Source: Stenotrophomonas sp. VV52
GTDB lineage: Bacteria > Pseudomonadota > Gammaproteobacteria > Xanthomonadales > Xanthomonadaceae
Assembly: GCF_002893095.1 (NCBI RefSeq)
Contig: NZ_PKQQ01000001.1
Coordinates: 744,001-808,000 of the forward strand
Length of the DNA stretch: 64,000 nucleotides
Direction of reading: 5' to 3'
The notes below the pieces were generated by a model, which had not been told where the DNA came from, did not search any database, and saw only the letters and a program-made list of their open reading frames with translations. The stretch's first letter is position 1. Each line of letters begins with the position of its first letter. The translations under genes and the position numbers were made by a program. Below, piece after piece: positions 9,662 to 46,929 of the stretch.

Positions 9662-10315
9662 ATGTCCCTTGTCATGGCTGCTGCCGCGGTTGCCGCGCCC
9701 CCGCCCACGTACGTCCTTGCATTGGCGGACATCTTCCTGCTGTTCTTCATCATGATCGGTCCGATCAAGGCCCTGGGCGCCTACGCCACGGCCGCCCACG
9801 GGATGGAACCCAGGCAATGGACCGCCACGGCCTGGAAAGTGTTCGGCGTTGCCCTGGTCACCACGCTGGTGGCCGGCGGCGTGGGGGGGATCATGCTGAA
9901 CAAGTGGCACATTGCCCCCGCCGTCCTGCAGCTGGCCGGCGGGCTGGTGTTCCTGCTGGTAGCGCTGCAGATGGTGTTGGCCCAGTACGCCACGCCGGCT
10001 CCGCCCGGCGGCACCGCAGCACCGCCACCCCCCGCGGGCAGACTCGCGTTCCCGGTCACGATTCCTGCCTACGGCATTGCGGCGCTCATCGTACTGGTCG
10101 CACTGAGTGGGTCTGCCGATCGCTATCTCTGGATCATGGGGCTGGCGATCCTGGTGCTGGTCCTGGACCTGGTCACGATGCTCTTCATCCGCTCGATCAT
10201 GAAAACGGTGGGGCAGCTGCCGCTGCAGATCCTTTCCGCAGTGCTGGGAATGTTGCAGGTGGCGCTGGCGCTGCAGCTCATTACCGGCGCCATCCGCACC
10301 ATCATCCATACCTAG
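9662..10315 (+). CDS. MarC-like integral membrane protein, first gene of the giant-repeat operon
   Basis: 217 residues starting at ATG 9662; an AGGGG lies about 10 nt upstream. The frame is open upstream to 9608, but those residues do not look like protein. It has about six hydrophobic segments. The first reads DIFLLFFIMIGPIKALGAY and later AGGLVFLLVALQMVL, matching the 'vvidPig' and 'aGGillfliAl' signatures of the MarC family. MarC proteins are inner-membrane proteins of unknown function. The next gene starts 10 bp after its stop, so it heads a run of seven co-oriented genes. Its role in that operon is unknown. Confidence 0.82.
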   Translation: MSLVMAAAAVAAPPPTYVLALADIFLLFFIMIGPIKALGAYATAAHGMEPRQWTATAWKVFGVALVTTLVAGGVGGIMLNKWHIAPAVLQLAGGLVFLLVALQMVLAQYATPAPPGGTAAPPPPAGRLAFPVTIPAYGIAALIVLVALSGSADRYLWIMGLAILVLVLDLVTMLFIRSIMKTVGQLPLQILSAVLGMLQVALALQLITGAIRTIIHT

Positions 10316-10325
10316 GTCGGCGCAC

Positions 10326-11150
10326 ATGGCACTACAGGGCAGTTTTCCCTACCTTCCGCTTTGGCTGATCACGCTCCTTCTTTTCGTGTCGCTGTTGCTT
10401 GCGCGCGAGCTGGGTGCCTGGTTGCGCACGCGTCGGCGGCGCACCGCCGGGAACGTCGATGGGAGCTCCGGCGACGGCGATGGGGTCGCGTTCTCGACGA
10501 CCACCGTGCTCGGCCTGCTTGCGCTGCTGATTGGCTTCACCTTTTCCCTCGCGCTGGGCCGCTACGACGAACGTCGCACCCTGGTGCTCAAGGAGGCCAA
10601 TGCACTGGGTACGACCTGGCTGCGAGCGGACCTGCTGGATCCGCGGGATGCCAACCGCGTTCGCGACATCCTGCGTCGGTACATCGACGCGCGGGTGGAC
10701 TTCGCCAACGCAAAGAGCGCCCGCACCGAGGTGGACCAGTTTGCGCGCACCGTGTCGATCCAGAACGAGTTGTGGGCAGCCGTGGTGGCTGCGGTGCAGC
10801 CGTTCCGGGACACGCCGCGCGCTTCCCTGCTGATCTCCACGACCAACGAGTCCATCGACCTGTCCGCCGAGCGCTTCGCAGCGCGCCAGGACCACATTCC
10901 GCACCGCATCCTGCGCATGCTGTTCGTGTTTTCCCTGCTGTCGGCGGGGCTGCTGGGCTTTGAGCGCGCGCAGAAGCGCAGCACCACGACCTTGCTGCTG
11001 CTGCTTTTTTCGCTGGCGGTAGGGCTTGTGCTGGACCTGGACCTGCCCAGTACCGGCGCGGTGAACGTGCCGCAGGACCCGATGCTGGACCTGCAGCGCT
11101 CGGTCAATCTGCCGGTGGTTCCGGCCGGGCCAGGGGAGAGTGGGTCATGA
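10326..11150 (+). CDS. DUF4239/bestrophin-like membrane protein
   Basis: 274 residues. Two N-terminal transmembrane helices (about 10-28 and 58-78) and two near residues 200-245 flank a soluble helical region. That region carries RTLVLKEANALGTTWLRADL and a SIQNELWAAVV segment, typical of the DUF4239 (bestrophin-like domain) family. The function of this family is not established; the four-helix layout recalls small ion channels. Its stop overlaps the next start as ATGA at 11147-11150, indicating co-translation. Confidence 0.78.
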   Translation: MALQGSFPYLPLWLITLLLFVSLLLARELGAWLRTRRRRTAGNVDGSSGDGDGVAFSTTTVLGLLALLIGFTFSLALGRYDERRTLVLKEANALGTTWLRADLLDPRDANRVRDILRRYIDARVDFANAKSARTEVDQFARTVSIQNELWAAVVAAVQPFRDTPRASLLISTTNESIDLSAERFAARQDHIPHRILRMLFVFSLLSAGLLGFERAQKRSTTTLLLLLFSLAVGLVLDLDLPSTGAVNVPQDPMLDLQRSVNLPVVPAGPGESGS

Positions 11151-11956
11151 ACACGCGCGTGTGTGCAGGCGTCCTTCGCTGCGCGCTCCCTGCGCTGGTC
11201 ATTGCCGCCGCCCAGGCAGGCCAAGCCCGCGCGGCCGATGCCGACGAACTGGCGAAAAAGCTCTCCAACCCGGTAGCCGCACTGATCAGCGTGCCCCTCC
11301 AGTTCAACCATGACGACGGCTATGCCAACGGTGGCCGCCGCACCACCCTGAACATCCAGCCGGTGGCACCGTTCTCGCTGTCCACCGACTGGAATGTGAT
11401 ATCGCGGACCATCCTGCCGGTGGCCTATCAGAAGGACGTGATCCTGGGTACCGACCAGGCCGGGATCGGCGACATCACCCAGAGTTTCTTCTTCTCGCCC
11501 AAAGAGACCGGTTCGTCGGGGGTGGTCTGGGGCATCGGTCCGGCGATCCTGGTCCCCACCGGCACCGACGACCTCGGCGCGGACACCTGGGGCGCCGGCC
11601 CGACTGTTGTGTTGCTGAAGCAGGACGCGGGCTGGACCTATGGCGCGCTGATGAACCACATCGCCGATGTGGCCGGCACCGGCTCGCGCCGCCAGGACAT
11701 CAGCTCCACCTTCCTGCAGCCGTTCCTGTCGCGGGCGTACAGCGGCGGGCGCACCCTCGCGTTCAACATCGAATCCACCTACGACTGGAAAGCGAGCCAA
11801 TGGACGGTGCCGCTCAATATCAGCTATTCGAAGGTTACCCGGCTGGGGAGCCAGATGATCAGCTACCAGGCCGGCGTGCGTGCGTATCTCGACGCTCCCG
11901 ATGGCGGACCGGATTGGGGTGTCCGCTTCGTGGTCACGCTGCTCTATCCGAAGTAA
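11147..11956 (+). CDS. Exported beta-barrel-like outer-membrane protein
   Basis: 269 residues. The Sec signal peptide ends near AQAGQARA. The mature protein is rich in alternating aromatic and polar beta-strands, with segments such as PVAALISVPLQFNHDDGY, WGIGPAILVPTGTDDLG and a C-terminus VRFVVTLLYPK. These resemble the MetA-pathway/transporter-like family of small outer-membrane barrels. It overlaps the previous gene by 4 bp and is 16 bp from the next. Substrate and function are not evident. An outer-membrane channel inside an operon that also encodes a giant exported protein is of note. Confidence 0.75.
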   Translation: MNTRVCAGVLRCALPALVIAAAQAGQARAADADELAKKLSNPVAALISVPLQFNHDDGYANGGRRTTLNIQPVAPFSLSTDWNVISRTILPVAYQKDVILGTDQAGIGDITQSFFFSPKETGSSGVVWGIGPAILVPTGTDDLGADTWGAGPTVVLLKQDAGWTYGALMNHIADVAGTGSRRQDISSTFLQPFLSRAYSGGRTLAFNIESTYDWKASQWTVPLNISYSKVTRLGSQMISYQAGVRAYLDAPDGGPDWGVRFVVTLLYPK

Positions 11957-11972
11957 TACAAGGAGCATCGTC

Positions 11973-12395
11973 GTGAGCTTTGCAGGCACCGCTGCGTCCC
12001 ACCTTGACACCCCGCCGCTGGAAGCGTGGCTGGTCGCGCTTACCGAGCCAGTGGTTACCGTGATCGCGCTGCTTGCGCTGATCCTCATCACGCTCGCCAC
12101 CATCATCGCATTCGTCAAAATGATCCTGATGATGGCGCGTGGCGGCAACAACACGCTGCGACGCGCGATCTGGCTGGAATACGGGCGCTGGCTGGTGGCC
12201 GGCCTGACCCTGCAGCTGGCTGGAGACATCATCGAATCCGCGATCTACACCACGTGGGATTCGATCGGTCAGCTGGCCGCCATCGCCGTGGTTCGCACCT
12301 TCCTCAACTATTTCCTTGAACGCGACATCCAGGAGATCCGCGAGCGCCAGCACCATGAGACGCCGGATCATGAGCCGGACGCAAGGCACGAGTGA
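11973..12395 (+). CDS. DUF1622 membrane protein
   Basis: 140 residues from the GTG at 11973; AAGGAG lies 7-8 nt upstream, which decides the start over the longer open frame. Two or three transmembrane helices are visible (VTVIALLALILITLATIIAF and GRWLVAGLTLQLAGDII), followed by a charged tail (LERDIQEIRERQHHE). The pattern matches DUF1622, a small inner-membrane family of unknown function. Its TGA overlaps the GTG of the giant gene (GTGA at 12392-12395), so both are probably translated together. Confidence 0.85.
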   Translation: MSFAGTAASHLDTPPLEAWLVALTEPVVTVIALLALILITLATIIAFVKMILMMARGGNNTLRRAIWLEYGRWLVAGLTLQLAGDIIESAIYTTWDSIGQLAAIAVVRTFLNYFLERDIQEIRERQHHETPDHEPDARHE

Positions 12396-15300
12396 ACCGC
12401 GTCTTCGCCCTCGCTCTGGTTGGACTGCTCGCCGTCGGCGGGCAGGCAGCTGCACAGGTCACGGTGCAGAACACTGCGCAGATCCAACCGCCGGCTGGCA
12501 CGGTGGACGGCAATACCGGCAACAACCAGGCCAGCGTGCAGGTGGCGGTGTATGCGGTCACGATCAGCAAGACCGGTAGCCCGGCCAGCGGCACGCCGGT
12601 AGCTGCCGGCGACACCATTGGCTTCGACCTGAACGTGGTGGTGACCGGTGCGACCACCACCGCAGCGACCGTGTTCACCGATACGCTGAGCGCCGGTTTG
12701 ACCCTGGTGCCGGGCTCGTTGCCTGCGGCCTGCAGCGGCAACGGCCAGGTCATCACCTGCACCCTCCCGGCCAACACACCGGTCGGCACGGCGACGGCGT
12801 GGTCCTACCAGGCCCTGGTAGCGCCCAACGCCACCGGCACGGTGAGCAATTCGGTCACCGGCGGGCAGGGTTGCACCAGTGGCGGCAGCTGCGTCGTCAC
12901 CCATGCGGTCTCGCCGGCCATCACCCTGGGTAAGTCCTGGGTCAACGGCCCCGCCGGCGATGCGGTGAGCCTGGCGATCAGCGGCGATGCGGGCGTGATC
13001 GTGCTGGGCGGCGGCAGTTCCACCAATGGCGGCACCACCACGCCGGCCACGGCGGGCGGCGCGGCCGGTGCGGCGGTGACGCTGACCGAAACCTTCAGTA
13101 CCGGCGCGGCGGCGAACTACCTGATCACGGCGGCCTGCACGCGCAATGACACCAGCTTGGCGGTCCCGGTAACCGGCAGCGGCCCCTCGGTGGACCTGAC
13201 CATGCCGGACGGCACAGGGATCGCATGCGCGTTCACCAATACCCGTCGGCAGGCGACCCTGACCCTGGTCAAACAGTGGGTCGATGCCCGGCCGGGCGAG
13301 ACCGCCACGGTCTCCAGCGCCGGCTTCACCAACAATGCAAGCTCCGGCGCCAGCACCTCCACCGGGAACAACACCACCACCGGCGCGCCCGCGACGGTGT
13401 ATGCAGGCGAAGTGGGCACGCTGTCGGAAACGCTCAGCGACTCGGCCAACTACATCAGCACCCTGGCCTGCACCGGCAACACCCAGCCACTGAGCGGCGG
13501 CACGCTGACCATCGACCCGGCCGACACCGCCATCGTCTGCACCTACACCAACACCCGGCGCAGTGCCACGCTGACCCTGGCCAAGGCCTGGGTCGACGGC
13601 CTGCCCGGTGACACCGCCACCGTTTCCAGCACCGGCTTCCAGAACGCGGCCACCAGTGGCCTGTCCACCTCGTCCGGCAACAACGTCACCACCGGCACTG
13701 AGGTCACCGTGTATGCGGGCGAAACCGGCAACATCGTCGAAACGCTGAGCAACCCGGGCAATTACGATGCCACCCTGGCCTGCACCGGCAACACGCAGGC
13801 CCTCAATGGCACCGGCCTCACCATCGACCCGGCCGACACCGCCATTGTCTGTACCCAGACCAACACGCGCCGCGCGGTCAGCCTGACCCTGCGCAAGAGC
13901 TGGGTGGACGCGGCCGTGGGCGAGGCCGTCACCGTCGAAGCCGCCGGGAGCACCACCAGCCCGATCACGCTGGCCTCTGCCGCCGACAGCGCCAACGAAA
14001 CCGACACCGGCGCGGCGGCACAGGTCTTTGCCGGCGAAGCAATCACCCTCAGTGAAACCTTCGCCATTCCGGGCAATGCCGCCAACTACACCAGCGCGCT
14101 GGCCTGTACGGGCAGCTCGGGGCTGAGCGGCAACGTGCTGACCGTGGGGCAGGGCGATACCGCCATCGTCTGCACCTATACCAACACCCGCCCACAGACC
14201 ACGCTGCAGTTGGTGAAGCAGTGGGCGCCGGACAGCCGAAACGGCGACGTGGCGCAGCTGGCCGCCAGCAGCGGCCTGCAGAACAACACCAGTGCCTTCA
14301 GCGCCACCGCATCGATCCCGGGCAACAGCACGACGGTGGTGGTGTACGTCGGCGAGCAGGCGATCCTGCCAGCCGAGACGATGAGCGGTGGCGCGTTGCC
14401 CAACTACGCGGTGGGCCTGGCCTGTACCGGCGGCAGCCTGAGTGGTGCGGACGGCAAGGCCAGCAACACACTGTCGGTACTGCCGGCGGATGCCGGCAAC
14501 CCGCTGGTATGCACCTACACCAACACCCGAAACACCACCACCCTGATCCTGCAGAAGACCTGGTTGAACGGGCTGGCCAACGATACCGTGACGGTAGGCG
14601 GCACTGGCCTGGTGCCGCTGCCTTCCACCGCGTCGGGCGCGGCCAGCCAGACCGACACCGGCGCGCCGCAGACGGTGCACGCCGGCGATGTGATCGAGCT
14701 GACCGAATCGTTCGGCTCGGTCACCTCCAACCTGTACACCTCCACCCTGTCCTGCACCAACACGGCCGGCCTGGTGGTGACCTCGCCAACCACCGGCACG
14801 CTCACGGTGGGCGCCACCGACGACCAGCCGATCACCTGCACCTTCGTCAATGACCGGCGCAGCGCCGAACTGATCGTGCGCAAGGTGTGGCAGGGCGGCC
14901 CGCCCGCGACCGTGTCGATCCCCGCCAGCACCGGTTTCGCCAACAACACGCCCGCGTTCACCTCGACCTCGCCGGGTCCGGACCAGGTCGGCCCGGTCAC
15001 CGTGTATGCGCTGGAGAACGGCAACCTGGGGCCGGAGTCGTTCACCAGCGGCAACGCGGGCGACTACAGCAGCAGCCTGACCTGCGATGGCACCGACACC
15101 AACCCGTCCAATGGCCTGCTCATTCCGATTGCCGACGCGGACAAGACCATTACCTGCACCTACTCCAATATTTTCGTGCCGCGCTCGTCGATCACCGTGG
15201 ACAAGACCACCCCGGTCAACAGCGTCACCACCGCCGGCCAGGTGGTGCCGTACCAGATCACGGTCACCAACGACGGCAACGTGCCGCTGACCAATGTCAC

Positions 15301-18300
15301 CGTGGTCGACCCGCTGATTGCCGGCAACATCACCTGCACGCCGGGCATTCCGGTGGCCAGCCTGGCGCCGGGCGCGGGCATCAGCTGCACCGGCAGCCAT
15401 ACCGTGACCCAGGCCGACATCGACCGCCAGGGAAGCAGCGACGGCATCGATGATGGGTTGATCACCAATTCGGTCAGCGTTGCGGGCAATGACCCCGACG
15501 GCACCCCCGTGGTCGACAACGACACCGCCGAAACCACGTTGCCCACGCCCAGTTACATCGCCGGGTTCACCAAGAGCGGTACCCTGGCCGATACCAACGG
15601 CAGCGGTGCGGCCAGCGCTGGCGAAGTGATCACCTACAATTTCAGCGTTACCAACGGCGGCAACACCACCATCCAGTCGGTCACCATCTCCGACCCGATG
15701 CTGCCCGGCCTGAACTGCCCGGTAATCGGGCCGCTGGCCCCGGGTGAGACGGTGACTTTCGGCAGCTCGCCGCCTTCACAGGTCGCGTGCACCGGCAATA
15801 CCTACACGGTGACCCAGGCCGACATTGACGATCGCGGCGGCGGCGACGGTGACATCGACAACACCGCTACAGGGACCGCCGTGGCGCCCGGTGGCGGAAG
15901 CGCGACCGGCGATGCCACCGCGAACGTGCCGGTGGATCCCGCAGCGCCGCGGCTGGTGATCGACAAGACCGCAAGCCCGGGCCAGGTCAGCACTGCAGGG
16001 GAGGTGATCACCTACACGTTCGTGGTCAACAACCCGGGCAACGTGACCATCAACGACATCAGCGTGACCGACCCGAAGCCCGGCCTGAGCGCGATCACCT
16101 GCGTGCCGCCGGCCCCGTTCACGCTGGCACCTGGCGCGAGTGCGACCTGCAGCGCGACCTACACCGTCACCCAGGACGATATCGACAACCTCAACGCCAT
16201 CACGAACACCGCTACCGCCACCGGCACCGACAACGGCATCAACGTGGTCGACGACGATGACGCCACGGTCATCATCAATCGCGGTACGGTGGCGGCCCAG
16301 CTGATCAAGATCGCCGACCGCAGTTCGGTCAATGCGGTGGGCGACCTGATCACGTATACGTTCCGGGTCAACAACCCCTCCACGGTGACGCTGGACAACC
16401 TGCAGATCACCAACGACAGCCTGCTCGGCAGCGCCCTGCAGTGCACGCCGATCCCGACGCTGGCGCCCAGTGCCACGGTCGACTTCAGCTGCACCGGCAA
16501 CGTGTATACGGTGCTGCAGTCCGACATCGACAATCAGGGCAACCCGGCGTTCGACAGCGGACGCATCCGCAATGAAGTCACCGGCACCGCGCAGTACCAG
16601 ATCGGCACCGATCCGGTGGTGACCGTCACCGACACCGCCATCGCCGAGGTTGCGCTGCCGCAGCGCACGCCGGCGGTGTTCCTGGACAAGGGCTCGGACG
16701 TGGGCTCGGTCAGTGGGCCGGGGCAGGCGATCTCCTACACCTTCAGCATCACCAACACCGGCAACGTCACCCTGACCGACCTGGCCATCACTGATCCGCT
16801 GCTTCCCGCGCTGGCGTGCCCGCCGATTCCCAGCCTGGCGCCGGGTGCCACCATCGTGGTGCAGGGCTGCCCGGGCATCAGCTACGTGGTGACCCAGGCC
16901 GACATCGACAGCGGCAGCAATGACGCCTCGCCCGGCAATGGCCAGATCAACAACGTGGCCGTGGTGACCGCCAACACCCCGGTGCAGAACCAGGTGGTGC
17001 GCGACGACGGCGAGCAGGAAGTGAACCTGCCGGTGCGCGGGCCGCAGATGACCATAGTGAAGAGCGCAGACGTCACCAGCGTGTCGGCGCCGGGAACCAT
17101 CAACTATCGCTTTACGGTCGCCAACACCGGCAACGTGACCTTGACCGGGGTCACCGTGAGCGACCCGGCGCTGGGGCTGAGCTGCCCGTCGGTAGACCTG
17201 ATTCCCAATGCGAGCGTCGTGTTCGGTGGGGCCAGCCCCGACGTGGTCTGCACCGGGACCACGCGCACCGTGACCCAGGCCGATATCGATGCAGGCGGTT
17301 CGCTGGACAATGTGGCGGTGGCCAGCGGCACCTCTGAAGTGAGCGGCGTGCTCAACCGTACCGGCGTGCTCAACATTCCGGTGGTCCGCTCGCCCGGGCT
17401 GGGACTGACCAAGAGCGCCAACGTGGCGAGTGTTACCACCCCCGGCGATGTCATCGTCTACACCCTCACCGCGACCAATTCGGGCAACACCACGCTGGAA
17501 AACGTGGTGATCAGCGATCCCATGCTGCCCGCATTGAGCTGCACGCCCGCCAGCCCCGTGGCGACGCTCGCACCGGCGGCAACCGTGACCTGCACGGGCA
17601 GCTACACCTCAACCCAGATCGATTTCGACAGCAACGGCGGTGGCGACCAGGCCATCGACAACACTGCCACCGCCACCTGGACCGGCGGCAGCACCAGCGC
17701 CAGCGCGGCGGTGGCCCTGCCGCTGCCCAACCAGTCGCTGACCCTGCTCAAGACGGCCGGCACGCCCACCATCGCCGCCGGTCGCGATCCTGCCGTGACC
17801 GACGCCGGCGACACCATCCCGTATACCTTCGTGGTGACCAATACCGGCAACCAGACGCTGTCGGCGGTGGCCGTCACCGATTCCAACATCGACGCCGCCG
17901 CCACCTGCGACCGGACCGTGATCACCGCCAGCGGCCCGACCTCCGTGGCGACCTGCACCGGCGTGCACACCATCACCCAGTCGGAGATGGACAACGGCAC
18001 GGTGAGCAACACGGCCACCGCCGCAGGCACGCCGCCGTCCAGTTCACGGGTCACCTCGGCCCCGTCGCAGGTCGACGTACCGCTGGCGGCGCAGCCGGTG
18101 ATCGTGCTCGACAAGACCGCCGGCACGCCCACTGTCTCGGCCGGCGCATCGTCCACGATCACCGATGCGGGCGACACCATCAGCTATGCCTTCGTGGTGA
18201 CCAACAATGGCAACGTCACCCTCAACAACATCACGGTGGCCGACCCGCTTCCCGGCACCTCGCCGATCGTGTGCCCACCGGGCCCGGTGGCGCCTGGCGG

Positions 18301-21300: not shown

Positions 21301-23689
21301 CACCGGCAACGTGCCGTTGTCGAACGTGACCATCGACGATGCGTTGATCACGCCAAACCGGCAGGTCTGCGCCAGCGTGGCCCCGGGCGCCAGCTGCGAA
21401 CTTACCGGCACCTATACGGTGACCCAGGCCGACACCGATTCGGGTACCGTGGACAACACCGCCCACATCACCGCCGAGCCGGCACCGGGTGGCAGCCCGC
21501 TGCCGCCTGCGGTGTGCCCGGCTGGCTCGACCGATGCACGCTGCACGCCGGTACTGAACCTGCCGATCGACCGTCGTCCCGCGCTGGCCACCACCAAGAC
21601 CGCGACGCTGAGCGTGGATGCCGGCACGCCCGGAAAGGGCAACATCGACGATGTGATCACCTACGCGGTGACGGCCACCAACGTGGGCAATGTCACGCTC
21701 AACAACCTGACCATCAACGACACCCTGCAAGGCAGCTCGCCGGTGCTGCTGGACTGCACGCCGACCCTGCTGGCGCCGGGTCAGATGGCCACCTGCGCCT
21801 CCTACACCCACACCATCACCGAGGCCGAAGCCGGCGTGGACGGTGGTCAGCTCACCAACACCGTACTGGCACAAGGGCAGCCCAACGGTGCCGGGCTGTC
21901 CACCGCCACGGCGACGGCAGCCGCAGTGATCGCGGTGGAGAACAAGCCGGCCACGCTGCGCCTGACCAAGGTGGCCGGGACGCGCGAAGTGAAGCGCGGC
22001 GATCTGGTGCGTTACAGCTTGACCGTACAGAACGTGGGCGACATCGACCTGGTCGACGGCTACCTGCTCGACACGCCGCCAGCCGGCTTTACCTACGTGG
22101 AAGGCTCGCTGCAGGGCGATGATGACGATCATTTCGTGACCGCCACCGGGCAGTCGCCGCTGCGCATCAACGATCTGGACATCGCGGCCGGGAACACCGC
22201 GCGGCTGTCCTACCTGATGCGGGTCGGCGCGGGGGTGCGCCCGGGCACCCAGGTCAACCACGCGCAGGCCTTCGCGCCGACCAACGAGATGGCGTCGAAT
22301 GTGGCCACGGCCGAAGTGGTGCTGGGCAACGACCCGCTGATCGACGACAGCCTGGTGATGGGCAGCGTGTTCGACGACCGTGACGGCGATGGCTGGCAGG
22401 ACAGCGCTGCGCTGGACAAGGTGCACGTGCAGGGCGGCTTCGCGCCGGGCGCGTACATCGCGGGCTCCACCACGGTCGACCGTGGCCAGGGCCCGCAGCT
22501 GCAGGCCGACGCCAGTGCGCCACTGCTGCATGGCCTGGCGCTGGGCAGCATCAGCGCCCGGCAGTCGCCGGCCGACCCGGCCGCCAATCACCAGGTGATC
22601 GTGAGCCAGCGCCTGCGGGCGCCCGAATTCACCGACGACTTCGTGCTCACCAGTGCGCAGGGCGTGCGCGTGCGGCTGGACGCGCAGGGTCATGCCCGCG
22701 TCGAACGCAGCGGTGACGCAGCGAAGGGCCTTTCCGCCGCCGAACCGACCGTGGAACGCCGCGTCACGGAAGCCCAGGGTGGCTACGTGGTCGATTACGT
22801 GATTGCCAACCAGGGCATCGACGAAGCCGGCATTCCCGGCGTCCGCATCGGCTCGGTCGAAGGCCTGATGGTGGAAACCGACCAGTACGGGCGCTACCAC
22901 CTGGCCGGCATCGAAGGCGGCGGGCGCGCGCGCGGGCGCAACTTCGTACTCAAAGTCGATGCCGCCACGCTGCCGGAAGGCGCAACCTTCACCACCGCCA
23001 ACCCGCTGCTGCGCCGGATCACCCCGGGGCTGCCGGTGCGCTTCGACTTCGGCATCACCCTCCCTGTGGCCGTGCTCGAAGCGCGTGAGCCGGTGGAGCT
23101 GGCGCTGGGCGAGGTGTTCTTCGCGCCAGACAGCAGCGCCATTCCCGAGCGCTATGCCCCGGTGATCGCCACCATGGCCAACCAGGTCCGGCAGCACGGT
23201 GCGGGCGAGGTGCTGGTGGCCGCCAATGGCGCCACCGCGACGCTGGCCTATGAACGCGCCGAAGCGGTACGACAGGCGCTGCTGGCCTCGCTGGGTGACG
23301 CGGCCACGCAGGTCAGCGTGCTCACGCGCGGCGACGTGGACGATCCTGCGTCGCTGCTGGTGGGCGTGGACCCGGGCGGCGCGCTGCTGGGCACCGCGCT
23401 GTTCGACACCGACAAGGCCGACCTGCGCCCGGACACGCTGGCCCTGCTGGACCGCGTCGCACGCACCCTTGAACAACGCGGTGGCGGCCGGGTGGTGATC
23501 GCAGGCCATGCTGACGTACGTGGCCCGGCCGGTTACAACATGCAGCTCGGCCTGCGCCGCGCCGAAGCGGTCACCGCAGCGCTGCGCGACCGGCTCCCGG
23601 ATGCACTGCGCGACAAGGTGACGGTGGACCTCAGTGGCGATCCGTCCACGCCGCTGGATGCGCCGGCGGGCACGAAGGAGGGCCGATGA
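12392..23689 (+). CDS. Giant exported DUF11-repeat protein with C-terminal OmpA-like anchor
   Basis: 3765 residues. A signal peptide (1-22, ending GGQAAAQ) is followed by a DUF11 domain. Seven repeats of about 105 residues (approx. 178-929) then start TLxLxKxWVD and end VCTYTNTR. Fifteen DUF7507/DUF11-type repeats (930-2685) follow, with VxLxKxA...VTNTGNVTL...CTGxYTVTQADID...NTATA. Two longer DUF11 domains (2684-2937), two more short repeats and a final DUF11 domain come next. Nearly all repeats keep a Cys pair. The tail has an SdrD-like segment (SVFDDRDGDGW; YGRYHLAGIEGG) and two OmpA-like halves (near 3569 and 3669). The second keeps the peptidoglycan-binding signature (GHADVRG...N...LRRAEAV). 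It is likely held to peptidoglycan while the repeats form a long rod. It overlaps both neighbours by 4 bp. Confidence 0.93.
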   Translation: MNRVFALALVGLLAVGGQAAAQVTVQNTAQIQPPAGTVDGNTGNNQASVQVAVYAVTISKTGSPASGTPVAAGDTIGFDLNVVVTGATTTAATVFTDTLSAGLTLVPGSLPAACSGNGQVITCTLPANTPVGTATAWSYQALVAPNATGTVSNSVTGGQGCTSGGSCVVTHAVSPAITLGKSWVNGPAGDAVSLAISGDAGVIVLGGGSSTNGGTTTPATAGGAAGAAVTLTETFSTGAAANYLITAACTRNDTSLAVPVTGSGPSVDLTMPDGTGIACAFTNTRRQATLTLVKQWVDARPGETATVSSAGFTNNASSGASTSTGNNTTTGAPATVYAGEVGTLSETLSDSANYISTLACTGNTQPLSGGTLTIDPADTAIVCTYTNTRRSATLTLAKAWVDGLPGDTATVSSTGFQNAATSGLSTSSGNNVTTGTEVTVYAGETGNIVETLSNPGNYDATLACTGNTQALNGTGLTIDPADTAIVCTQTNTRRAVSLTLRKSWVDAAVGEAVTVEAAGSTTSPITLASAADSANETDTGAAAQVFAGEAITLSETFAIPGNAANYTSALACTGSSGLSGNVLTVGQGDTAIVCTYTNTRPQTTLQLVKQWAPDSRNGDVAQLAASSGLQNNTSAFSATASIPGNSTTVVVYVGEQAILPAETMSGGALPNYAVGLACTGGSLSGADGKASNTLSVLPADAGNPLVCTYTNTRNTTTLILQKTWLNGLANDTVTVGGTGLVPLPSTASGAASQTDTGAPQTVHAGDVIELTESFGSVTSNLYTSTLSCTNTAGLVVTSPTTGTLTVGATDDQPITCTFVNDRRSAELIVRKVWQGGPPATVSIPASTGFANNTPAFTSTSPGPDQVGPVTVYALENGNLGPESFTSGNAGDYSSSLTCDGTDTNPSNGLLIPIADADKTITCTYSNIFVPRSSITVDKTTPVNSVTTAGQVVPYQITVTNDGNVPLTNVTVVDPLIAGNITCTPGIPVASLAPGAGISCTGSHTVTQADIDRQGSSDGIDDGLITNSVSVAGNDPDGTPVVDNDTAETTLPTPSYIAGFTKSGTLADTNGSGAASAGEVITYNFSVTNGGNTTIQSVTISDPMLPGLNCPVIGPLAPGETVTFGSSPPSQVACTGNTYTVTQADIDDRGGGDGDIDNTATGTAVAPGGGSATGDATANVPVDPAAPRLVIDKTASPGQVSTAGEVITYTFVVNNPGNVTINDISVTDPKPGLSAITCVPPAPFTLAPGASATCSATYTVTQDDIDNLNAITNTATATGTDNGINVVDDDDATVIINRGTVAAQLIKIADRSSVNAVGDLITYTFRVNNPSTVTLDNLQITNDSLLGSALQCTPIPTLAPSATVDFSCTGNVYTVLQSDIDNQGNPAFDSGRIRNEVTGTAQYQIGTDPVVTVTDTAIAEVALPQRTPAVFLDKGSDVGSVSGPGQAISYTFSITNTGNVTLTDLAITDPLLPALACPPIPSLAPGATIVVQGCPGISYVVTQADIDSGSNDASPGNGQINNVAVVTANTPVQNQVVRDDGEQEVNLPVRGPQMTIVKSADVTSVSAPGTINYRFTVANTGNVTLTGVTVSDPALGLSCPSVDLIPNASVVFGGASPDVVCTGTTRTVTQADIDAGGSLDNVAVASGTSEVSGVLNRTGVLNIPVVRSPGLGLTKSANVASVTTPGDVIVYTLTATNSGNTTLENVVISDPMLPALSCTPASPVATLAPAATVTCTGSYTSTQIDFDSNGGGDQAIDNTATATWTGGSTSASAAVALPLPNQSLTLLKTAGTPTIAAGRDPAVTDAGDTIPYTFVVTNTGNQTLSAVAVTDSNIDAAATCDRTVITASGPTSVATCTGVHTITQSEMDNGTVSNTATAAGTPPSSSRVTSAPSQVDVPLAAQPVIVLDKTAGTPTVSAGASSTITDAGDTISYAFVVTNNGNVTLNNITVADPLPGTSPIVCPPGPVAPGGSITCSSTVYTITQANMDAGQVVNTATAQGVPPTGPAVTGEDSTTTPLAPGPAFTLVKTATPQTYATVGQNIGYAYLVTNTGNVTVSALALTDDRIASVSCPATTLAPQASTTCTGNYLITQADLDAGSVTNTATATATPAQGTLAPVTTQETITAVQTRSLALVKSTSTPSYNAVGATLSYSYLVTNNGNITLTDPVTVSDNRISSVGCPALPAGGLAPNASITCTATYTTTQADLDAGSVVNVATATSGATVSPSSTVTVNAVQTPALALDKSTTTTTYDSVGDVLAYSYLVTNTGNVTLTAPVIISDDRIVAPATVNCPALPPGGLVPGGTLTCTASYSVTQADLDAGSVTNVATASSGSTTSAQDSVTVNGTQNPALSMAKVVSNAPTPVVLGSVLEYTVTGTNSGNTTLTNVVISDDKITPASTTCASVAPGGTCVLVGTYTVVQADVDAGQVLNIGSGISDTTPRTPSPPTITPVQQLRGLGLDKTSTATTYDSVGDVLPYSYLVTNTGTVTVTAPITVNDDRIVAPATVSCPALPPGGLAPNASITCTASYTVTQADLNSGSVINTATATDGTTTSAPDSVTIDATQLPAITLDKTASVADSNSDGITGDAGDQITYAFAVQNTGNVRLAPVRVSDPLLPTLVCDVLVLEPGATTTCQATGNAYAITFADETATSVVNTATATGKPPGTLPDATATDTVTTPTQLTPAATTVTKTSQPASGTQVAPNEVIEYSVAVTVANAALHEVVTVTDLLGPGLTFVAVTQAGDFTCNAANPLVCSLPVGTAPGVHTLVYTARVDADATGTVRNAVVPSKPAGVDPAPVCSSCTTEHPIVPSQATVTKSADPVSGSFVDRGQGIVFTVTTVIAGSATTQPLLLQDALGAGLNFDTVVSAGAYTCTGALQCTLPAGTLPGSYPLVYRATVDAGASGVVTNTVAASNPPGGDPDPICTSCSTDHTVVQPALETAKTLASNSDPDGNGQVSTGDLLTYTVRATNTGNVPLSNVTIDDALITPNRQVCASVAPGASCELTGTYTVTQADTDSGTVDNTAHITAEPAPGGSPLPPAVCPAGSTDARCTPVLNLPIDRRPALATTKTATLSVDAGTPGKGNIDDVITYAVTATNVGNVTLNNLTINDTLQGSSPVLLDCTPTLLAPGQMATCASYTHTITEAEAGVDGGQLTNTVLAQGQPNGAGLSTATATAAAVIAVENKPATLRLTKVAGTREVKRGDLVRYSLTVQNVGDIDLVDGYLLDTPPAGFTYVEGSLQGDDDDHFVTATGQSPLRINDLDIAAGNTARLSYLMRVGAGVRPGTQVNHAQAFAPTNEMASNVATAEVVLGNDPLIDDSLVMGSVFDDRDGDGWQDSAALDKVHVQGGFAPGAYIAGSTTVDRGQGPQLQADASAPLLHGLALGSISARQSPADPAANHQVIVSQRLRAPEFTDDFVLTSAQGVRVRLDAQGHARVERSGDAAKGLSAAEPTVERRVTEAQGGYVVDYVIANQGIDEAGIPGVRIGSVEGLMVETDQYGRYHLAGIEGGGRARGRNFVLKVDAATLPEGATFTTANPLLRRITPGLPVRFDFGITLPVAVLEAREPVELALGEVFFAPDSSAIPERYAPVIATMANQVRQHGAGEVLVAANGATATLAYERAEAVRQALLASLGDAATQVSVLTRGDVDDPASLLVGVDPGGALLGTALFDTDKADLRPDTLALLDRVARTLEQRGGGRVVIAGHADVRGPAGYNMQLGLRRAEAVTAALRDRLPDALRDKVTVDLSGDPSTPLDAPAGTKEGR
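12924..15180 (+). repeat. Seven tandem 'A' repeats inside the giant gene
   Basis: Seven consecutive units of roughly 310-345 bp. Each encodes a domain that begins with a TLTLxKxWVD-like strand and ends with CTYTNTR or a close variant. Two Cys per unit are conserved: one in the ACTGN region and one in VCTYTN. The fold is probably an Ig/prealbumin-like sandwich. Units 2 and 3 are the most alike. Confidence 0.85.
15181..20441 (+). repeat. Fifteen tandem 'B' (DUF7507/DUF11-type) repeats inside the giant gene
   Basis: Fifteen units of roughly 320-390 bp with the motif order K-T/S, D/G-x-I-x-Y, VTNTGNVTL, VSDPLL, LAPG, CTG, YTVTQADID, NTATA. Two Cys sit about 10-25 residues apart in most units. 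The units near 19110 and 19770 share long nearly identical DNA (for example AGCTACCTGGTGACCAACAC in both), pointing to recent copying between units. Confidence 0.85.
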
Positions 23690-26600
23690 AACGCCATCTG
23701 CTCTATTGCGCCCTGGTCAGCCTTCTGGCCAGCGCGGCACCGCAGGCCTGGGGCGAAACGCCGCCGGAAGTGAAGTGCGGCACCGAAGCCTGCGACGAAG
23801 ACGGCAAGGTGCTGCTGCGCGTGCGCACGCGCGGCGCCACCCAACCGGTGACCGAGGGGCTGGATGCCACCTCCGGAGAGAAGGCCCTGCAGCCGGACCG
23901 CCGCGTCACCGTCTCTGCACCGCCGCCGGGCAAGGCGGTGGCGACCGGCCGCTTCAGCATCCTGCTGCCGGGTGGCGGGGCGATCTGGGCCACCGAGGAC
24001 CCGAACCTCGGGCGGCCGGAACTGTCGGTGTCGGCACCGTCGCTGGTGGCGTTCCAGGACGGCCACATCACCAAACCGGTGCCGTTCTACGTGCGCGGCA
24101 ACTACAGCGACTTCATCGAACGGATGGAGCTGCTGGTGTACCGCTCCACCGACGTCGATCTGATCAGCCCGATCGCCACGGTGGAGCTGCCGGTGTCGGC
24201 CGTGAGCCAGGCCGACTGGGCCGGCGAGCTGCCAGCGCAGGATCAGTTCCGGGTCGGGGACACGCTGGTGTACATCGTGCGCGCGCATGGCGCCAACGGG
24301 ATCTACGACGAAACCCTGCCGCATACCCTGCAGCTGGTGCACCCGGTGGAAGCGGACAACCAGCTGACACGCCTGCGCAACGCCTCGGAAACCCGCCTGG
24401 GCCAGGCGCTCAGTGCCGAGGAAGGCCTGCGCCAGAGCCTGATCGACAGCGCGTTCGCCGAAAATGGACTGCGCCTGCAGAACATTCCCATCTACGGGTC
24501 GCGCATCCGCATCCGCGGCAGCAACATCGCCGAGCAGGCCAGCCTGACCATCAACGGCGATTCCTACCCGGTCGACCAGCAACGCCGCTTCGTGGCCGAA
24601 TACCTGGTGCCGGTGGGCCCGCACCGTTTCGACATCGAGGTGAGCGGCGCAGGGCAGGGTGCAGCACCCCAGCGCCACGTTCTCGACGTGGACGTGAGCG
24701 GCAAGTACTTCTATGGCATCGGCCTGGCGGATGTGACCATCGCCCAGAATGATGTGAGCGCTGCCACCGCGCCGCTGGCCGTGGACGAGCGCTACGCCGA
24801 CGACGTGATCAGCGACGGCCGGCTGGCGTTCTACGCCAAGGGCAAGGTCAAGGGCAAATACCTGGTCACCGCCCAGGCCGACACCACCGAGCAGGACATC
24901 AAGCACCTGTTCGACGGGTTCACCGAGGCTTGGCCGCAGGATATCTTCCGCCGCCTCGACCCGGACCTGTACTACCCGACCTACGGCGACGACTCGGCGA
25001 CCTGGCGCGACGTGGACAGCATGGGTCGCTTCTACCTGCGCGTGGACTGGGACAAGAACCAGGCGCTGTGGGGCAACTACGCTACCGGCCTGACCGGCAC
25101 CGAGTACGCGCAGTACGTGCGCTCGCTGTACGGCGGCGCGCTCAGCTGGCGCTCGCCGGCGATCACGCCGTGGGGTGGTCCACGCAGTGAAGTGCGCGCC
25201 TTCGGCGCGCAGGAGCAGACCGCGCCCGGCCACAACGAATTCATCGGCACCGGCGGCAGCCTGTACTACCTGCGCAACACCGACATCCTGCCGGGCTCGG
25301 ACCAGGCGGTGCTGGAAGTGCGCGACCCCACCACCGGCCGGGTGGAGGTGCGCACGCCACTGGTGCGCGGCACCGACTACGAGATCGACGAACTGCAGGG
25401 CCGCCTGCTGCTGACCCGGCCGCTGGCGCAGATCACCCGCGAGAACGTGCGCACGCTGACCCGCGACGCACCGCTGGACGGCTACGAACAACGCCTGCTT
25501 GTCGACTACGAATGGCTGCCCAGCGGCTTCGACGACGGTCAGCTCACCGCCGGCTTCCGCGGCCGCCAATGGCTGGGCGACCACGTGGGCGTGGGCGCCA
25601 CGTATGTGGACGAGAACCGCGACGGCGAGGACTACACCCTGGCAGCCGGCGATCTAACCCTGCAGGCCGGCAAGGGCACCTACCTGAAAGCCGAGTACTC
25701 GCACACCGAATCGTTCGCGGTGCCGTCGTTCTTCTCCGACAACGGCGGCTTCAGCTTCAGTCAGCGCAACCCCACCGACATTCGCCGCGAAGGCGACGCG
25801 GTAGCCGTAGAGGCGCGCGCCAACCTGAAGGAGCTGGGCTGGACCACGCTGGACTGGAGCGCCGGCAGCTGGTGGCGGCAGACCGACGCCGGTTTCTCCA
25901 TTGCCCGTCACGACACCGGCCTGCCGGTCACCGAATACGGTGCTGAAGTGCTGGGCCGGATCAACCGCGAGCTGCAGCTGTATGCGCGCTACAGCAAGGC
26001 GCGCAGCGGCGAAGAACAGCTGACCCAGGCGCAGGCCACGGTGGAATGGCGGCCGGACGACTGGAACACGCTGGAGGCGGAGCTGCGCCGGGTAGAGGAG
26101 GGCAGCCGCACCGATCCGGCGGCCGGGCTGCTGGGGGCAGTGAGGTACACCCACCGCTTCGGCACCGCGCTGGATGTGTACGGGCAGGCGCAGGTCACCC
26201 TGGATGACGACGGCGGCCGCTACGAAGACAACAACGCCGTGGGCGTAGGCGCCAACTACCTGATCGCCGACCGCGCCAGCATCGGTGCCGAGGCCAGCAC
26301 CGGCGACCGCGGCGACGCCGCCACCGTCGACGCCGAGTACCGCGTGGGCACGGACTACTCGCTGTATGGCGCCTACACCTGGTCCACCGACACCACCGCC
26401 TACGACTCGCCGTTCGACAACGATCGTCTCAATGGCTGGACCCTGGGCCAGCGCTGGCGCATCTCCAACCAGGCGAACCTGTTCAACGAAAGCCAGTTCC
26501 TGAAGGAAGACACCCAGTCCGGCCTGGCGCACACGGTGGGCATGGACTTCTACCCGGCCACCGGCTGGAACCTGGGCTTCACCCTGCAGAGCGGCGAGCT

Positions 26601-27345
26601 GGAGACCGTGGATGGCGGCGTGGTCGACCGCCGTGCGATCAGCGTCAGTGGTGGCCGTACCTCGTCGGACACCGACTGGCGGAGCAAGGTCGAATGGCGC
26701 CGCGACACCGGTGCCGAGCAGCGCGAACAATGGGTCACCACCAACCGGCTCACCCACAAGATCAACGAGAGCTGGCGCATCGCCGGGCGCTTCAACTATT
26801 CCAAGACCACCGACCAGCTCAATGCGCTGGCCGGCGCGCGGTTCTGGGAGGGCAACATCGGCTTTGCCTACCGCCCGTGGAACAGCCAGCGCTGGGCGCT
26901 GTTCGGGCGCTACACCCAGCTCTACGACCTGGCCAGCCCGGGCCAGGTGGACAATACCGACCAGGACCAGAAGACCCAGATCCTGTCCTTCGAAGGCGTG
27001 TACAAGCAGGACACCCACTGGGAATACGGGGTCAAGCTGGCGCGGCGCGAAGGCGAGGTGCGGCTGGGCCGGGGCAGCGGGCCGTGGTTCGACTCGGCCA
27101 CCACCTTCGGCGCGCTGCAGGTGCGTTACGAATTGCTGCAGAAATGGCACGCGCTGGGCGAATACCGCTGGCTGGACGTCAAGGACGGTGGCACCCAGTC
27201 GGGCTACCTTATCGGACTGGACCGCGACATCGGCACCAACTTCCGGCTCGGCGTGGGCTACAACTTCACCGAGTTCAGCGACGACCTGACCAACTTCGAC
27301 TACGACCACAAGGGCTGGTTCCTCAACATGGTGGGAACCTACTGA
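23686..27345 (+). CDS. Large outer-membrane beta-barrel protein partnered with the giant repeat protein
   Basis: 1219 residues; the ATG overlaps the giant gene's stop (ATGA). The signal peptide ends near QAWG. Residues about 40-345 form soluble beta domains (SAPSLVAFQDGHITKPVPF; IPIYGSRIRIRGSNI). After about residue 345 the sequence becomes a long series of alternating aromatic strands with polar turns, such as GRFYLRVDWDKNQALWGNYA, ending KGWFLNMVGTY, a terminal aromatic typical of outer-membrane barrels. No TonB box, plug or POTRA domain was recognised. Obligate coupling to the giant gene suggests it exports, threads or caps that protein. I do not recognise a named family. Confidence 0.85.
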   Translation: MKRHLLYCALVSLLASAAPQAWGETPPEVKCGTEACDEDGKVLLRVRTRGATQPVTEGLDATSGEKALQPDRRVTVSAPPPGKAVATGRFSILLPGGGAIWATEDPNLGRPELSVSAPSLVAFQDGHITKPVPFYVRGNYSDFIERMELLVYRSTDVDLISPIATVELPVSAVSQADWAGELPAQDQFRVGDTLVYIVRAHGANGIYDETLPHTLQLVHPVEADNQLTRLRNASETRLGQALSAEEGLRQSLIDSAFAENGLRLQNIPIYGSRIRIRGSNIAEQASLTINGDSYPVDQQRRFVAEYLVPVGPHRFDIEVSGAGQGAAPQRHVLDVDVSGKYFYGIGLADVTIAQNDVSAATAPLAVDERYADDVISDGRLAFYAKGKVKGKYLVTAQADTTEQDIKHLFDGFTEAWPQDIFRRLDPDLYYPTYGDDSATWRDVDSMGRFYLRVDWDKNQALWGNYATGLTGTEYAQYVRSLYGGALSWRSPAITPWGGPRSEVRAFGAQEQTAPGHNEFIGTGGSLYYLRNTDILPGSDQAVLEVRDPTTGRVEVRTPLVRGTDYEIDELQGRLLLTRPLAQITRENVRTLTRDAPLDGYEQRLLVDYEWLPSGFDDGQLTAGFRGRQWLGDHVGVGATYVDENRDGEDYTLAAGDLTLQAGKGTYLKAEYSHTESFAVPSFFSDNGGFSFSQRNPTDIRREGDAVAVEARANLKELGWTTLDWSAGSWWRQTDAGFSIARHDTGLPVTEYGAEVLGRINRELQLYARYSKARSGEEQLTQAQATVEWRPDDWNTLEAELRRVEEGSRTDPAAGLLGAVRYTHRFGTALDVYGQAQVTLDDDGGRYEDNNAVGVGANYLIADRASIGAEASTGDRGDAATVDAEYRVGTDYSLYGAYTWSTDTTAYDSPFDNDRLNGWTLGQRWRISNQANLFNESQFLKEDTQSGLAHTVGMDFYPATGWNLGFTLQSGELETVDGGVVDRRAISVSGGRTSSDTDWRSKVEWRRDTGAEQREQWVTTNRLTHKINESWRIAGRFNYSKTTDQLNALAGARFWEGNIGFAYRPWNSQRWALFGRYTQLYDLASPGQVDNTDQDQKTQILSFEGVYKQDTHWEYGVKLARREGEVRLGRGSGPWFDSATTFGALQVRYELLQKWHALGEYRWLDVKDGGTQSGYLIGLDRDIGTNFRLGVGYNFTEFSDDLTNFDYDHKGWFLNMVGTY

Positions 27346-27374
27346 TGGACACCCTGCACCAGGAGACCACGACC

Positions 27375-28097
27375 GTGACCCGCCTTCGCGCCCCCCGCGC
27401 CGTCCGTTCTGGGTTGCTGCTGTTCCTGCTCGGCCTTGCCGGGCATGCCGCTGCGCAGTCCACGGTGCAGATCGCAGCGCAGAGCACTCCCGGCACCAGC
27501 ACGTTCACCTATTCCATGACCAATCTGGTCCCCGACAACGACAGCATCACAACCTCTGCGGCGGGTGCGGTGACGGTCTCCCCGACAACCGGCACGGTGA
27601 CAGACGAAACATCCGCGGTCGTGATCACCCAGGGAGCCAACCCCCAGTACACGCTGACCTCGGCTTCGTGCGAGAACAGCGCCGGCACCACTGGCATCGG
27701 CACGCGGATAGGCAACTCGCTCACCATCGCCGCAACAAATTTCACGCCCGCCACCGCGCTGGTATGCACGTTCATCAATGCGCAGGTCGACGCCGACCTG
27801 ACCATCACAAAGAGCGCCAGCCCCACTACCGTACCCAGCGGCGGCACCGTGACCTACACGCTGGTTGCCAGCAATGTGGGTGCCGCAGATGTGACCAATG
27901 CGGTGCTGAGTGATACCCCGGGTACAGGATTGAGCTGCACTGCCGACGCGTCCTGCTCGGCGGTCGGTGGCGCCAGCTGCCCGGGGGACCTGTCAGCGGC
28001 AGCGCTGTTCGGGCCCGGTACCACCATATCCAGCCTGCCGGCGGGCAGTAGTGTCACCCTTACCGCCGCCTGCACCGTAACGGCTACCGGGCAGTGA
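27375..28097 (+). CDS. Small exported DUF11-domain protein, last gene of the operon
   Basis: 240 residues from the GTG at 27375, chosen because AGGAG lies at 27361-27365. An ATG at 27345, overlapping the upstream stop as TGATG, is the alternative and adds 10 residues. The signal peptide ends near GHAAAQ. The N-terminal half ends with LVCTFINAQ, like the end of an 'A' repeat of the giant protein; the C-terminal half (DLTITKSASPTTVPSGGTVT) is one DUF11 repeat. It has no OmpA domain or sorting signal. It could be a minor or tip subunit that pairs with the giant rod; this is inference from shared domains and operon position. Confidence 0.82.
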   Translation: MTRLRAPRAVRSGLLLFLLGLAGHAAAQSTVQIAAQSTPGTSTFTYSMTNLVPDNDSITTSAAGAVTVSPTTGTVTDETSAVVITQGANPQYTLTSASCENSAGTTGIGTRIGNSLTIAATNFTPATALVCTFINAQVDADLTITKSASPTTVPSGGTVTYTLVASNVGAADVTNAVLSDTPGTGLSCTADASCSAVGGASCPGDLSAAALFGPGTTISSLPAGSSVTLTAACTVTATGQ

Positions 28098-45400: not shown

Positions 45401-45990
45401 GCAGTGGCAGCCTCGACAAGCGTGACTCGGGCACCCTCATCCTCGACGGCATCAACAGCTACAGCGGCGGCACCGTGCTGTCCGGTGGCACGCTGGTGCT
45501 CGGCAACGATCAGGCGATTGGCAGCGGCGTCCTGTCTGCAGCCGATGGCACCACGCTCGACACGGGCGAGGCCATGACGCTGGCCAACGCTGTTGCCCTG
45601 AACGGCGCACTCACCGTGGCCGGGAGCAACGACCTCACCCTGTCCGGTGTGGTCAGCGGCAACGGTGGGCTGGTCAAGCAGGGCGACACCACGCTCAGCC
45701 TGGACGGCGCCAACACCTACAGCGGCGGCACCGCACTGCAGGCCGGCACGCTGCTGCTGGGCAACGCGCAGGCGCTGGGCACCGGTACGCTCAGTGCCGC
45801 CGACGGCACCGCGCTGGATACCACTGCTGCCGCGCAGCTCGCCAACAACATCGCGCTCGACGGCACGCTCAACCTGGTCGGCAGCAATGACCTGACCCTG
45901 GCCGGCAACATCGCAGGCAGCGGTGGGCTGGTCAAGGACGGCGATACCACGCTGACCTTGACCGGAACGAACAGCTACGGCGGCGGCACC
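42430..45990 (+). repeat. Two in-register copies of a 1.9-kb block in the giant autotransporter
   Basis: Matching landmarks repeat with a spacing of 1899 bp (633 codons). The YRLIDYTGALTNNGL segment is at 43033 and 44932, and the LEK segment at about 42659 and 44558. Flanking PATR motifs, VQFWDGT and the QAIG segments also line up. The copies have diverged at many codons, so the duplication is old. Confidence 0.85.
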
Positions 45991-46929
45991 ACGGTCAACG
46001 CCGGCACCCTGGTAGGCACCAGCGCCAGCCTGCAAGGTGGCATCGCAAATGAGAGCGCGGTGGTCTTCGACCAGGCCGGCGACGGCACCTTCAACGGCAG
46101 CATCAGTGGCAGCGGCACCCTGACCAAACAGGGCGGTGGCGCATTGCGGCTGGCGGGCGCCAACAGCTACAGCGGCGGCACCACCGTAGAGGCTGGCACG
46201 CTGATCGGCGACACCGACAGCCTGCAGGGCGACATCACCGACAACGCCACACTGGTGTTCGACCAGGGCAGCGACGGGACCTATGCCGGCGTCATCAGTG
46301 GCAATGGCTCGCTGGTCAAGCAGGGCGGCGGCACGCTGGCCCTCACCGGCGCCAACAGCTACAGCGGTGGCACCACCATCAACGCCGGTACGCTGCTCGG
46401 CGATACCACCAGCCTGCAGGGCGACATCGTCGACAACGCCAACCTGGTGTTCGAGCAGGGCGACGGTGACACCTTCGCCGGCAGCATCAGCGGCAGCGGC
46501 ACGCTGACCAAGCAGGGCTTCGGCGTGCTGCGCCTGGCCGGCATCAACAGCTACAGCGGTGGCACCACCATCAGCGCCGGTACGCTGGTCGGCGACACCA
46601 CCAGCCTGCAGGGCAACATCGTCGACAACGCCAGCCTGGTCTTCGACCAGGGCGACGACGGCACCTTCAGCGGCGCGATCTCCGGCACCGGTGCGCTCAC
46701 GAAGGAGGGCGAAGGCGCGCTCACCCTGGCCGGCAGCAACAGCTACAGCGGCGGCACCACGGTGGACGCCGGCACGCTGATCGGCAACACCAGCAGTCTG
46801 CAGGGCGACATCGCCAACAACGCAGCGCTCGTGTTCGACCAGGCCGCCAACGGCACCTATGCCGGTACGCTCTCGGGCGACGGCAGCCTGGACAAGACCG
46901 GCGCCGGCACGCTGCTGCTCAGCGGCAAC
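45970..46929 (+). repeat. Five tandem 192-bp repeats in the autotransporter passenger
   Basis: The NSYxGGTT motif (DNA AACAGCTAC...) starts at 45970, 46162, 46354, 46546 and 46738, exactly 192 bp (64 codons) apart. Each unit also carries a TxSLQGxI segment, LVFDQG and a SGxGxLTK segment. The neighbouring unit at 46927 is degenerate. Such exact-period, in-frame repeats can gain or lose units without a frameshift. Confidence 0.9.

Follow-up and report, generated by a model that had tools for sequence, protein, structure and literature searches.

A giant CLIPPER rod, an outer-membrane barrel and a separately encoded tip in Stenotrophomonas: a candidate fibrillar adhesin with one domain divided between two proteins

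How a giant surface fibre might be assembled from separately encoded parts and exported is the question raised by a locus of Stenotrophomonas sp. VV52 (Gammaproteobacteria; Xanthomonadaceae). The locus lies within a stretch of 64,000 nucleotides, analysed as a whole and called the window below, on the forward strand of contig NZ_PKQQ01000001.1 (positions 744,001 to 808,000) of assembly GCF_002893095.1, which comprises 4.43 Mb in 36 contigs. Its three central genes, all on the forward strand, encode a giant rod of 3765 amino acids (gene E, 12392..23689; from its open reading frame (ORF), Pfam and NCBIfam), an outer-membrane barrel of 1219 amino acids without a named family (gene F, 23686..27345; ORF, Pfam, NCBIfam and a structural model) and a tip protein of 250 amino acids (gene G, 27345..28097; ORF, Pfam and a structural model). 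The rod and barrel genes overlap in an ATGA at 23686, and the barrel and tip genes in a TGATG at 27345. Together these genes probably encode a modular fibrillar adhesin that possesses its own outer-membrane barrel and has a separate tip joined to its rod. For the way in which the parts are joined, we lean slightly towards a natural tag/catcher arrangement, in which a CLIPPER domain split between two chains would weld the rod to an exchangeable tip covalently, and an unnamed, dedicated barrel of the size of SprA would export the pre-joined filament.

The conserved core of the system is the rod and the barrel, and the tip is a separately encoded head. Conservation was assessed in two sets of loci: a 20-locus set, consisting of 18 barrel loci from the genus and two further ones that the VV52 genome has in addition to the window copy, and an 80-locus set, obtained by scanning contigs with the barrel alignment and made up of the best 80 of 228 confirmed stretches. 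The two sets share at least six loci (e.g., L025 and L045) and do not amount to 97 independent cases. In all measurements of the gap between rod and barrel, the start codon nearest to the rod stop was taken as the barrel start. In the 20-locus set, a giant rod ORF stands directly 5' of every barrel, with -4 to +10 bp between its stop and the barrel start. In the 80-locus set, a rod C-terminus takes this position in 77 loci, with a gap of -4 to +16 bp; the other three loci are L048 and L086, which start at contig edges, and L062, which is without a rod. This adjacency upholds the proposal, made in an earlier note on this DNA, that the rod has a barrel of its own. Barrel matches, distant and partial ones included, were found in 23 of 61 genomes (its own and those of relatives) and in 19 of 200 genomes of the order. 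The main hosts among the best 80 of the 228 stretches are Stenotrophomonas, Pseudoxanthomonas, Luteimonas, and Lysobacter, and further hosts are Microbulbifer, Saccharophagus, Lampropedia, Comamonas, and Variovorax. One contig carrying this Gram-negative system (L096) is titled Bacillus subtilis and probably represents a contaminated or mislabelled assembly. The VV52 genome itself holds a second rod-barrel pair on contig C5 (L023), with a barrel 56% identical to that of the window and a rod without the canonical OmpA end, and a third, distant pair on contig C6 (L024), with a barrel about 25-31% identical and an overlapping junction; the first domain of the L024 rod is DUF11-like, and the sequence stretch examined there yielded no tip gene.

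From its N- to its C-terminus, the window rod consists of a signal peptide, an orphan CLIPPER tail, SpaA-like stretches recognised by eye, CLIPPER and CLIPPER_2 repeats, a linker, and an OmpA domain; Pfam places DUF7507 in 17 stretches of the repeats and DUF11 in 12. The OmpA domain (PF00691; residues 3670-3732, 23399..23587) belongs to a peptidoglycan-binding family, which supports the peptidoglycan-binding tail claimed for the rod in the earlier note; a pattern search found the OmpA motif in 79 of 98 rods, so it is not universal. At the other end, many rods begin right after the signal peptide with the pattern V-x-N-T-A ... D-x-x-x-x-N-N, which corresponds to the end of a DUF11 domain whose earlier part is missing. 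In the window this segment, termed here the tag, forms the mature N-terminus of the rod (about residues 22-54, 12455..12553; delimited by sequence and profile) and corresponds to the C-terminal part of a CLIPPER domain, the cleavage site having been set by eye and a simple rule, not by a trained predictor. Among the 98 rods found, the 5' end of the reading frame lay within the locus in 65, and 61 passed the signal-peptide rule; eight of the latter were dropped as not being real rod starts (L028, L029, L060, L071, L087, L104, L115, and L116), and the remaining 53 were sorted by reading their N-termini, 35 having the orphan CLIPPER tail (fragment-type rods) and 18 being fragment-free. A profile of the tail only, built from 426 complete internal domains and thus independent of the rod N-termini, gave a median of 9.9 bits on the 35 fragment N-termini (at least 4 bits in 31, lowest -1.5) and 0.6 bits on the 18 fragment-free rods (at least 4 bits in two, highest 5.2). 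Its median on 3500 shuffles was likewise 0.6 bits (at least 4 bits in 261), and on 65 barrel N-termini it was -0.8 bits (at least 4 bits in three).

The tip protein is truncated in a corresponding manner. It consists of a signal peptide, read by eye, a SpaA_4 domain, and a CLIPPER (DUF11) domain that is cut short at its C-terminus; this truncated domain, termed the catcher, occupies residues 151-250 (27795..28094; Pfam, profile and structural model). The DUF11 match of the tip covers positions 1-88 of the 114 in the profile (1-89 in a second search), and in relatives' tips it ends at position 83-84 where that end is the best stretch listed. When a CLIPPER profile of 124 positions was built from the rods' own domains, 947 domain matches were obtained in frames of at least 100 amino acids from 101 loci; 73 of them end no more than 15 residues from the stop codon, none reaching position 110, and most tips end at position 89-96, with the rods supplying the remainder. 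Truncated CLIPPER domains at the C-terminus mark 78 ORFs as tips (74 after removal of identical ends), spread over 61 of the 101 loci, with two of them occurring together in 12 loci, three in one, and four in one. This count excludes L037 and L038 and includes doubtful frames, namely those of L104, L116, L071, and one of L108, which are short or partial, that of L023, which is broken, and that of L118, which is read through. The earlier note had listed the product of gene G as a small DUF11 protein; the DUF11 domain is indeed present, and what had been overlooked is that it is cut short and that the rod bears the remainder. In the predicted structure of the tip (predicted local distance difference test score, pLDDT, 89.6), the chain ends with the CLIPPER domain incomplete. 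Comparison of the window with a same-species genome gave 54.7% identity for the tip, 98.3% for the barrel, and 100% for the first 100 residues of the rod, so that, judging from one same-species pair only, the tip head looks like the fast-changing part. Tips elsewhere vary in number and content: L090 has four tip-type ORFs in a row 3' of the barrel for one rod, one with GEVED and SpaA domains, and the tips of L102, L068, and L070 have a DUF6923 domain, a candidate binding head, ahead of the truncated CLIPPER domain.

The division of the domain also separates the residues of a characterised isopeptide bond. In the solved CLIPPER domain 9IFR, Lys715 is joined to Asn806 by an isopeptide bond, with Asp748 as the presumed catalyst (PMC12617251). 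Located by counting along the chain with the CTTC motif as a ruler, the isopeptide Asn is that of V-V-N-K-V, which matches the Asn of the rod pattern and falls in the tail part of the domain; its counterpart in the window rod is Asn27 (12470-12472). The Lys, Asp, and Asn lie at profile positions 5, 41, and 103, and the split between tip and rod falls between 41 and 103. On the tip, Lys156 (27810-27812) and Asp190 (27912-27914) are invariant in 57 aligned tips, while among the full set the Lys is present in 73 of 74 tips (the exception is a partial match) and the Asp in 74 of 74; the Asn is present in 35 of 35 fragment-type rods. Lys and Asp on the tip and Asn on the rod is the layout of engineered tag/catcher pairs (PMC5487036, PMC5333627). 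From these residues, an intermolecular Lys-Asn isopeptide bond between tip and rod appears likely.

Tip and rod fragment co-occur: a tip gene is present in 33 of the 35 loci with a fragment-type rod, and a 34th locus, L023, has a frame-broken one. A tip gene belonging to the locus was found with none of 16 fragment-free rods, this number being left after L094 and L100 were omitted from the count as presumed duplicates of L030 and L032. Fisher's test gave p = 4.6e-11 for 31 of 33 versus 0 of 16, uncorrected for kinship and calculated before L037 and L038 were added. The tip ORF seen in fragment-free L056 belongs to the neighbouring system L063, being the same ORF by contig coordinates, and no tip was found in fragment-free L027, L031, L033, and L034 in the approximately 12 kb that were added to each beyond the initial ~0.7 kb past the barrel. 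The tip gene lies either before the rod or after the barrel, giving two gene orders, and tip-rod loci occur in several genera. Fragment-free rods can bear an adhesive head on the same chain, for example CshA_NR2 and GEVED in L097. Such fused heads, together with the GEVED domain of one of the separate tips of L090, are what one would expect if head and rod were one design, either fused or split.

The barrel protein has no Pfam match above the cut-off and no NCBIfam match, and no POTRA family is among its Pfam matches up to an E-value of 0.1, which bears out the earlier description of a barrel with no recognised POTRA domain; no credible sequence match to Protein Data Bank chains was found either. 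A long run of predicted beta strands extends from about residue 329 to the C-terminus. The top four rows in Foldseek comparisons of the barrel model are SprA, at template modelling (TM) scores of 0.12-0.15 by query length and root-mean-square deviations of 36-45 Å, and numerous unrelated barrels, including TonB-dependent receptors, appear in the comparisons as well. In a distant relative (L156:6244-11376; barrel 33% identical), the barrel protein itself has an N-terminal OmpA domain, and a search of the final 682 rod residues found none. Because the OmpA domain is on the rod in most loci and on the barrel in L156, the rod C-terminus and the barrel N-terminus may meet in the periplasm as one complex; the barrel, we infer, exports or holds the rod.

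The proposed sequence of events begins with the transfer of rod and tip to the periplasm by way of the signal peptides read from their sequences. There, the tail-less CLIPPER domain observed on the tip and the tail observed at the start of the rod would very probably complete one domain together. An isopeptide bond between the two chains would then be likely to form from the tip's Lys and Asp and the rod's Asn, as happens within a normal CLIPPER domain. The joined filament would leave the cell tip first through the very large barrel, with the C-terminal region of the rod and its OmpA domain presumably remaining in the periplasm to hold the filament to peptidoglycan. Under such a scheme tip genes could multiply or diverge, with no change needed in rod or barrel.

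Several known systems share parts of this design. In chaperone-usher pili, donor-strand exchange completes an incomplete domain with the N-terminus of the neighbouring subunit, and the tip emerges first. The system considered here is similar in the completion of an incomplete domain by a neighbour's N-terminus and in the proposed tip-first order, and differs in having a single giant rod instead of a polymer and possibly an isopeptide bond; no usher or pilus chaperone family is among the Pfam matches of genes A-G. Two-partner secretion (TPS; type Vb) is characterised by POTRA domains in the barrel protein and a TPS/haemagglutination domain in its partner, and no TPS/haemagglutination domain is among the Pfam matches of the window proteins. 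SprA, the translocon of type 9 secretion, is likewise a very large single-chain barrel, although the scores for similarity of fold are low. The two-partner adhesin CdrA and its barrel CdrB (PMC7616799) resemble the arrangement proposed here in that the adhesin has its own outer-membrane barrel, its C-terminus being held and its N-terminal head pointing outward; OmpA in place of a cysteine hook, the separate tip, and an apparently much larger barrel set the present pair apart. The closest stalk is that of B9T28_05395 of Acinetobacter silvestris, a fibrillar adhesin described with a CLIPPER stalk (PMC12617251), which shares the long series of CLIPPER domains and the C-terminal OmpA anchor, and has a head of the CshA type, as do some relatives here. 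Unlike B9T28_05395, the window system has its head as a separate protein, a rod that starts with a partial domain, and a dedicated barrel gene that follows. An N-terminal adhesive domain on the same chain is absent from the window rod, which has the CLIPPER tail instead, and present in the CshA-type relative; neither 'barrel' nor 'split' appears as a word in the paper's main text (PMC12617251). Of the set for which the earlier note knew no named system, the stalk at least is of the known CLIPPER kind (PMC12617251) and in itself not new. Engineered RrgA/CnaB tag/catcher pairs (PMC5333627, PMC5487036, PMC8878318) are alike in consisting of a self-crosslinking domain with its reactive residues on two chains. 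Unlike those laboratory-made pairs, the split described here is apparently natural, lies in a Gram-negative surface fibre, and affects a CnaA-like CLIPPER domain, with a bond that is likely from its residues. Natural spontaneous interchain isopeptide bonds have been described for phage capsid subunits and for an alpha-helical hairpin fold (PMC12617251); because these cases are known, interchain isopeptide chemistry as such is not new, and neither of them, as described there, is a beta-sandwich domain split between tip and stalk.

A number of observations weigh against the proposed assembly. Joining, bond, and export are each something that we infer from sequence. The loci are related by descent, and their counts are given without phylogenetic correction. 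The distances of tags and those of catchers are correlated (rho 0.318), though not clearly in excess of what barrel kinship gives (partial correlation, 0.127; 434 of 5000 permutations were as high); this outcome would be compatible as well with a connector able to take many different tips. Four of the 35 fragments score below 4 bits with the tail profile and two fragment-free rods above, and the profile alone therefore mis-sorts some rods, just as the Asn pattern alone is not specific, being present in 4 of 18 fragment-free N-termini. L049 has a rod fragment and no tip in the stretch examined, and the tip gene upstream in L023 is frame-broken near its end. The published Asp748 is one residue off the chain count. 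Complete internal domains have the Lys in 575 of 581 cases, the Asp in 567, and the Asn in 495, and because the same three residues are so common there, those in the two halves may be partly inherited from complete domains. The barrel model is of only moderate confidence (pLDDT 71.4; predicted TM-score 0.60).

These points give some room to other explanations. Strand complementation, as in pilus subunits, may be all that completes the domain shared by tip and rod, with no covalent bond formed; the truncation of the tip and the fragment of the rod would match in position whatever the chemistry, yet the near-invariance of Lys, Asp, and Asn on their separate chains is something that plain complementation would not need, even if these residues are perhaps partly inherited, and this alternative is considered unlikely, though it deserves to be kept in mind. 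That an unrelated transporter or porin merely shares an operon with an OmpA-anchored adhesin is less probable still: the barrel's lack of a family assignment and the many unrelated barrels, TonB-dependent receptors included, in the fold comparisons would permit this, but the adjacency of rod and barrel (20 of 20 loci in one set, 77 of 80 in the other), the near-constant spacing, and the presence of the OmpA domain on either partner speak against it. It is very improbable that a gene split has left the fragment on the rod and the truncation of the tip as functionless relics, the tip being an unrelated secreted protein. In one subfamily the tip and rod genes are adjacent, as they would be after a split, but both halves persist in 33 of 35 fragment loci, in two gene orders and several genera, with the key residues intact.

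A last rival concerns the extent of the system. Upstream of the rod on the same strand lie gene A (9662..10315), encoding a MarC family membrane protein (PF01914), gene B (10326..11150), encoding a Bestrophin-like membrane protein (PF14023), gene C (11147..11956), encoding an exported outer-membrane-protein-like (OMP-like) product of 269 amino acids with a Pfam match below the cut-off only, and gene D (11973..12395), encoding a DUF1622 membrane protein (PF07784), all assigned by Pfam. Genes B and C overlap in an ATGA at 11147, and gene D overlaps the rod start in a GTGA at 12392. The sequence agrees in every coordinate and junction with the earlier picture of seven same-strand ORFs joined by overlaps or short gaps. 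The three inner-membrane families named in it were also recovered, PF14023 under the Pfam name Bestrophin-like in place of DUF4239-like; its small outer-membrane-type protein, gene C, is OMP-like by that sub-threshold match only. All seven genes occur in identical order in the same-species genome, which is a single contig, and because of this the arrangement is not an assembly error. The tight junctions and this shared order favour the reading of all seven genes as one functional system, as the earlier note had it, but genes A-D had no match in any of the 20 barrel loci and, save for one weak match of gene C, none in the 80, an absence that counts only where at least 1 kb 5' of the rod is visible (16 of 20 and 41 of 77 loci). 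The complete order was seen only in VV52 and the one same-species genome. In the stretches fetched, genes B and C recur in other members of the genus without rod, barrel, or tip, and gene C adjoins gene B in three of the relatives. The claim of one conserved seven-gene system is thus not borne out, and a single functional unit of seven is hardly credible. Because the pair is conserved and genes A-D are, apart from that weak match, unmatched where upstream sequence is visible, rod and barrel are the system, and A-D are its neighbours in this species. Elsewhere in the window, a sulfatase family protein is encoded just 3' of the locus on the opposite strand (29017-31344), and a second giant surface protein of 2731 amino acids (40285-48480) has 18 PATR autotransporter-repeat stretches, with 192-base tandem repeats at 45950-46858 inside its gene.

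The CLIPPER stalk, the OmpA anchor, and isopeptide chemistry are already known. A search of the open-licence literature turned up no paper on a CLIPPER domain split in nature, nor one on this barrel; as far as that search shows, two things are new, namely that tip and rod each naturally carry part of one CLIPPER domain, and that a barrel family is linked to them. Should the tag/catcher reading be true, protein ligation would gain a precedent from nature as well as new parts, and an unnamed barrel family, with 228 confirmed stretches in one scan, would acquire a clear partner. For the bacteria themselves, it would mean that the head of a giant adhesin could be swapped while its stalk and exporter were left unchanged.

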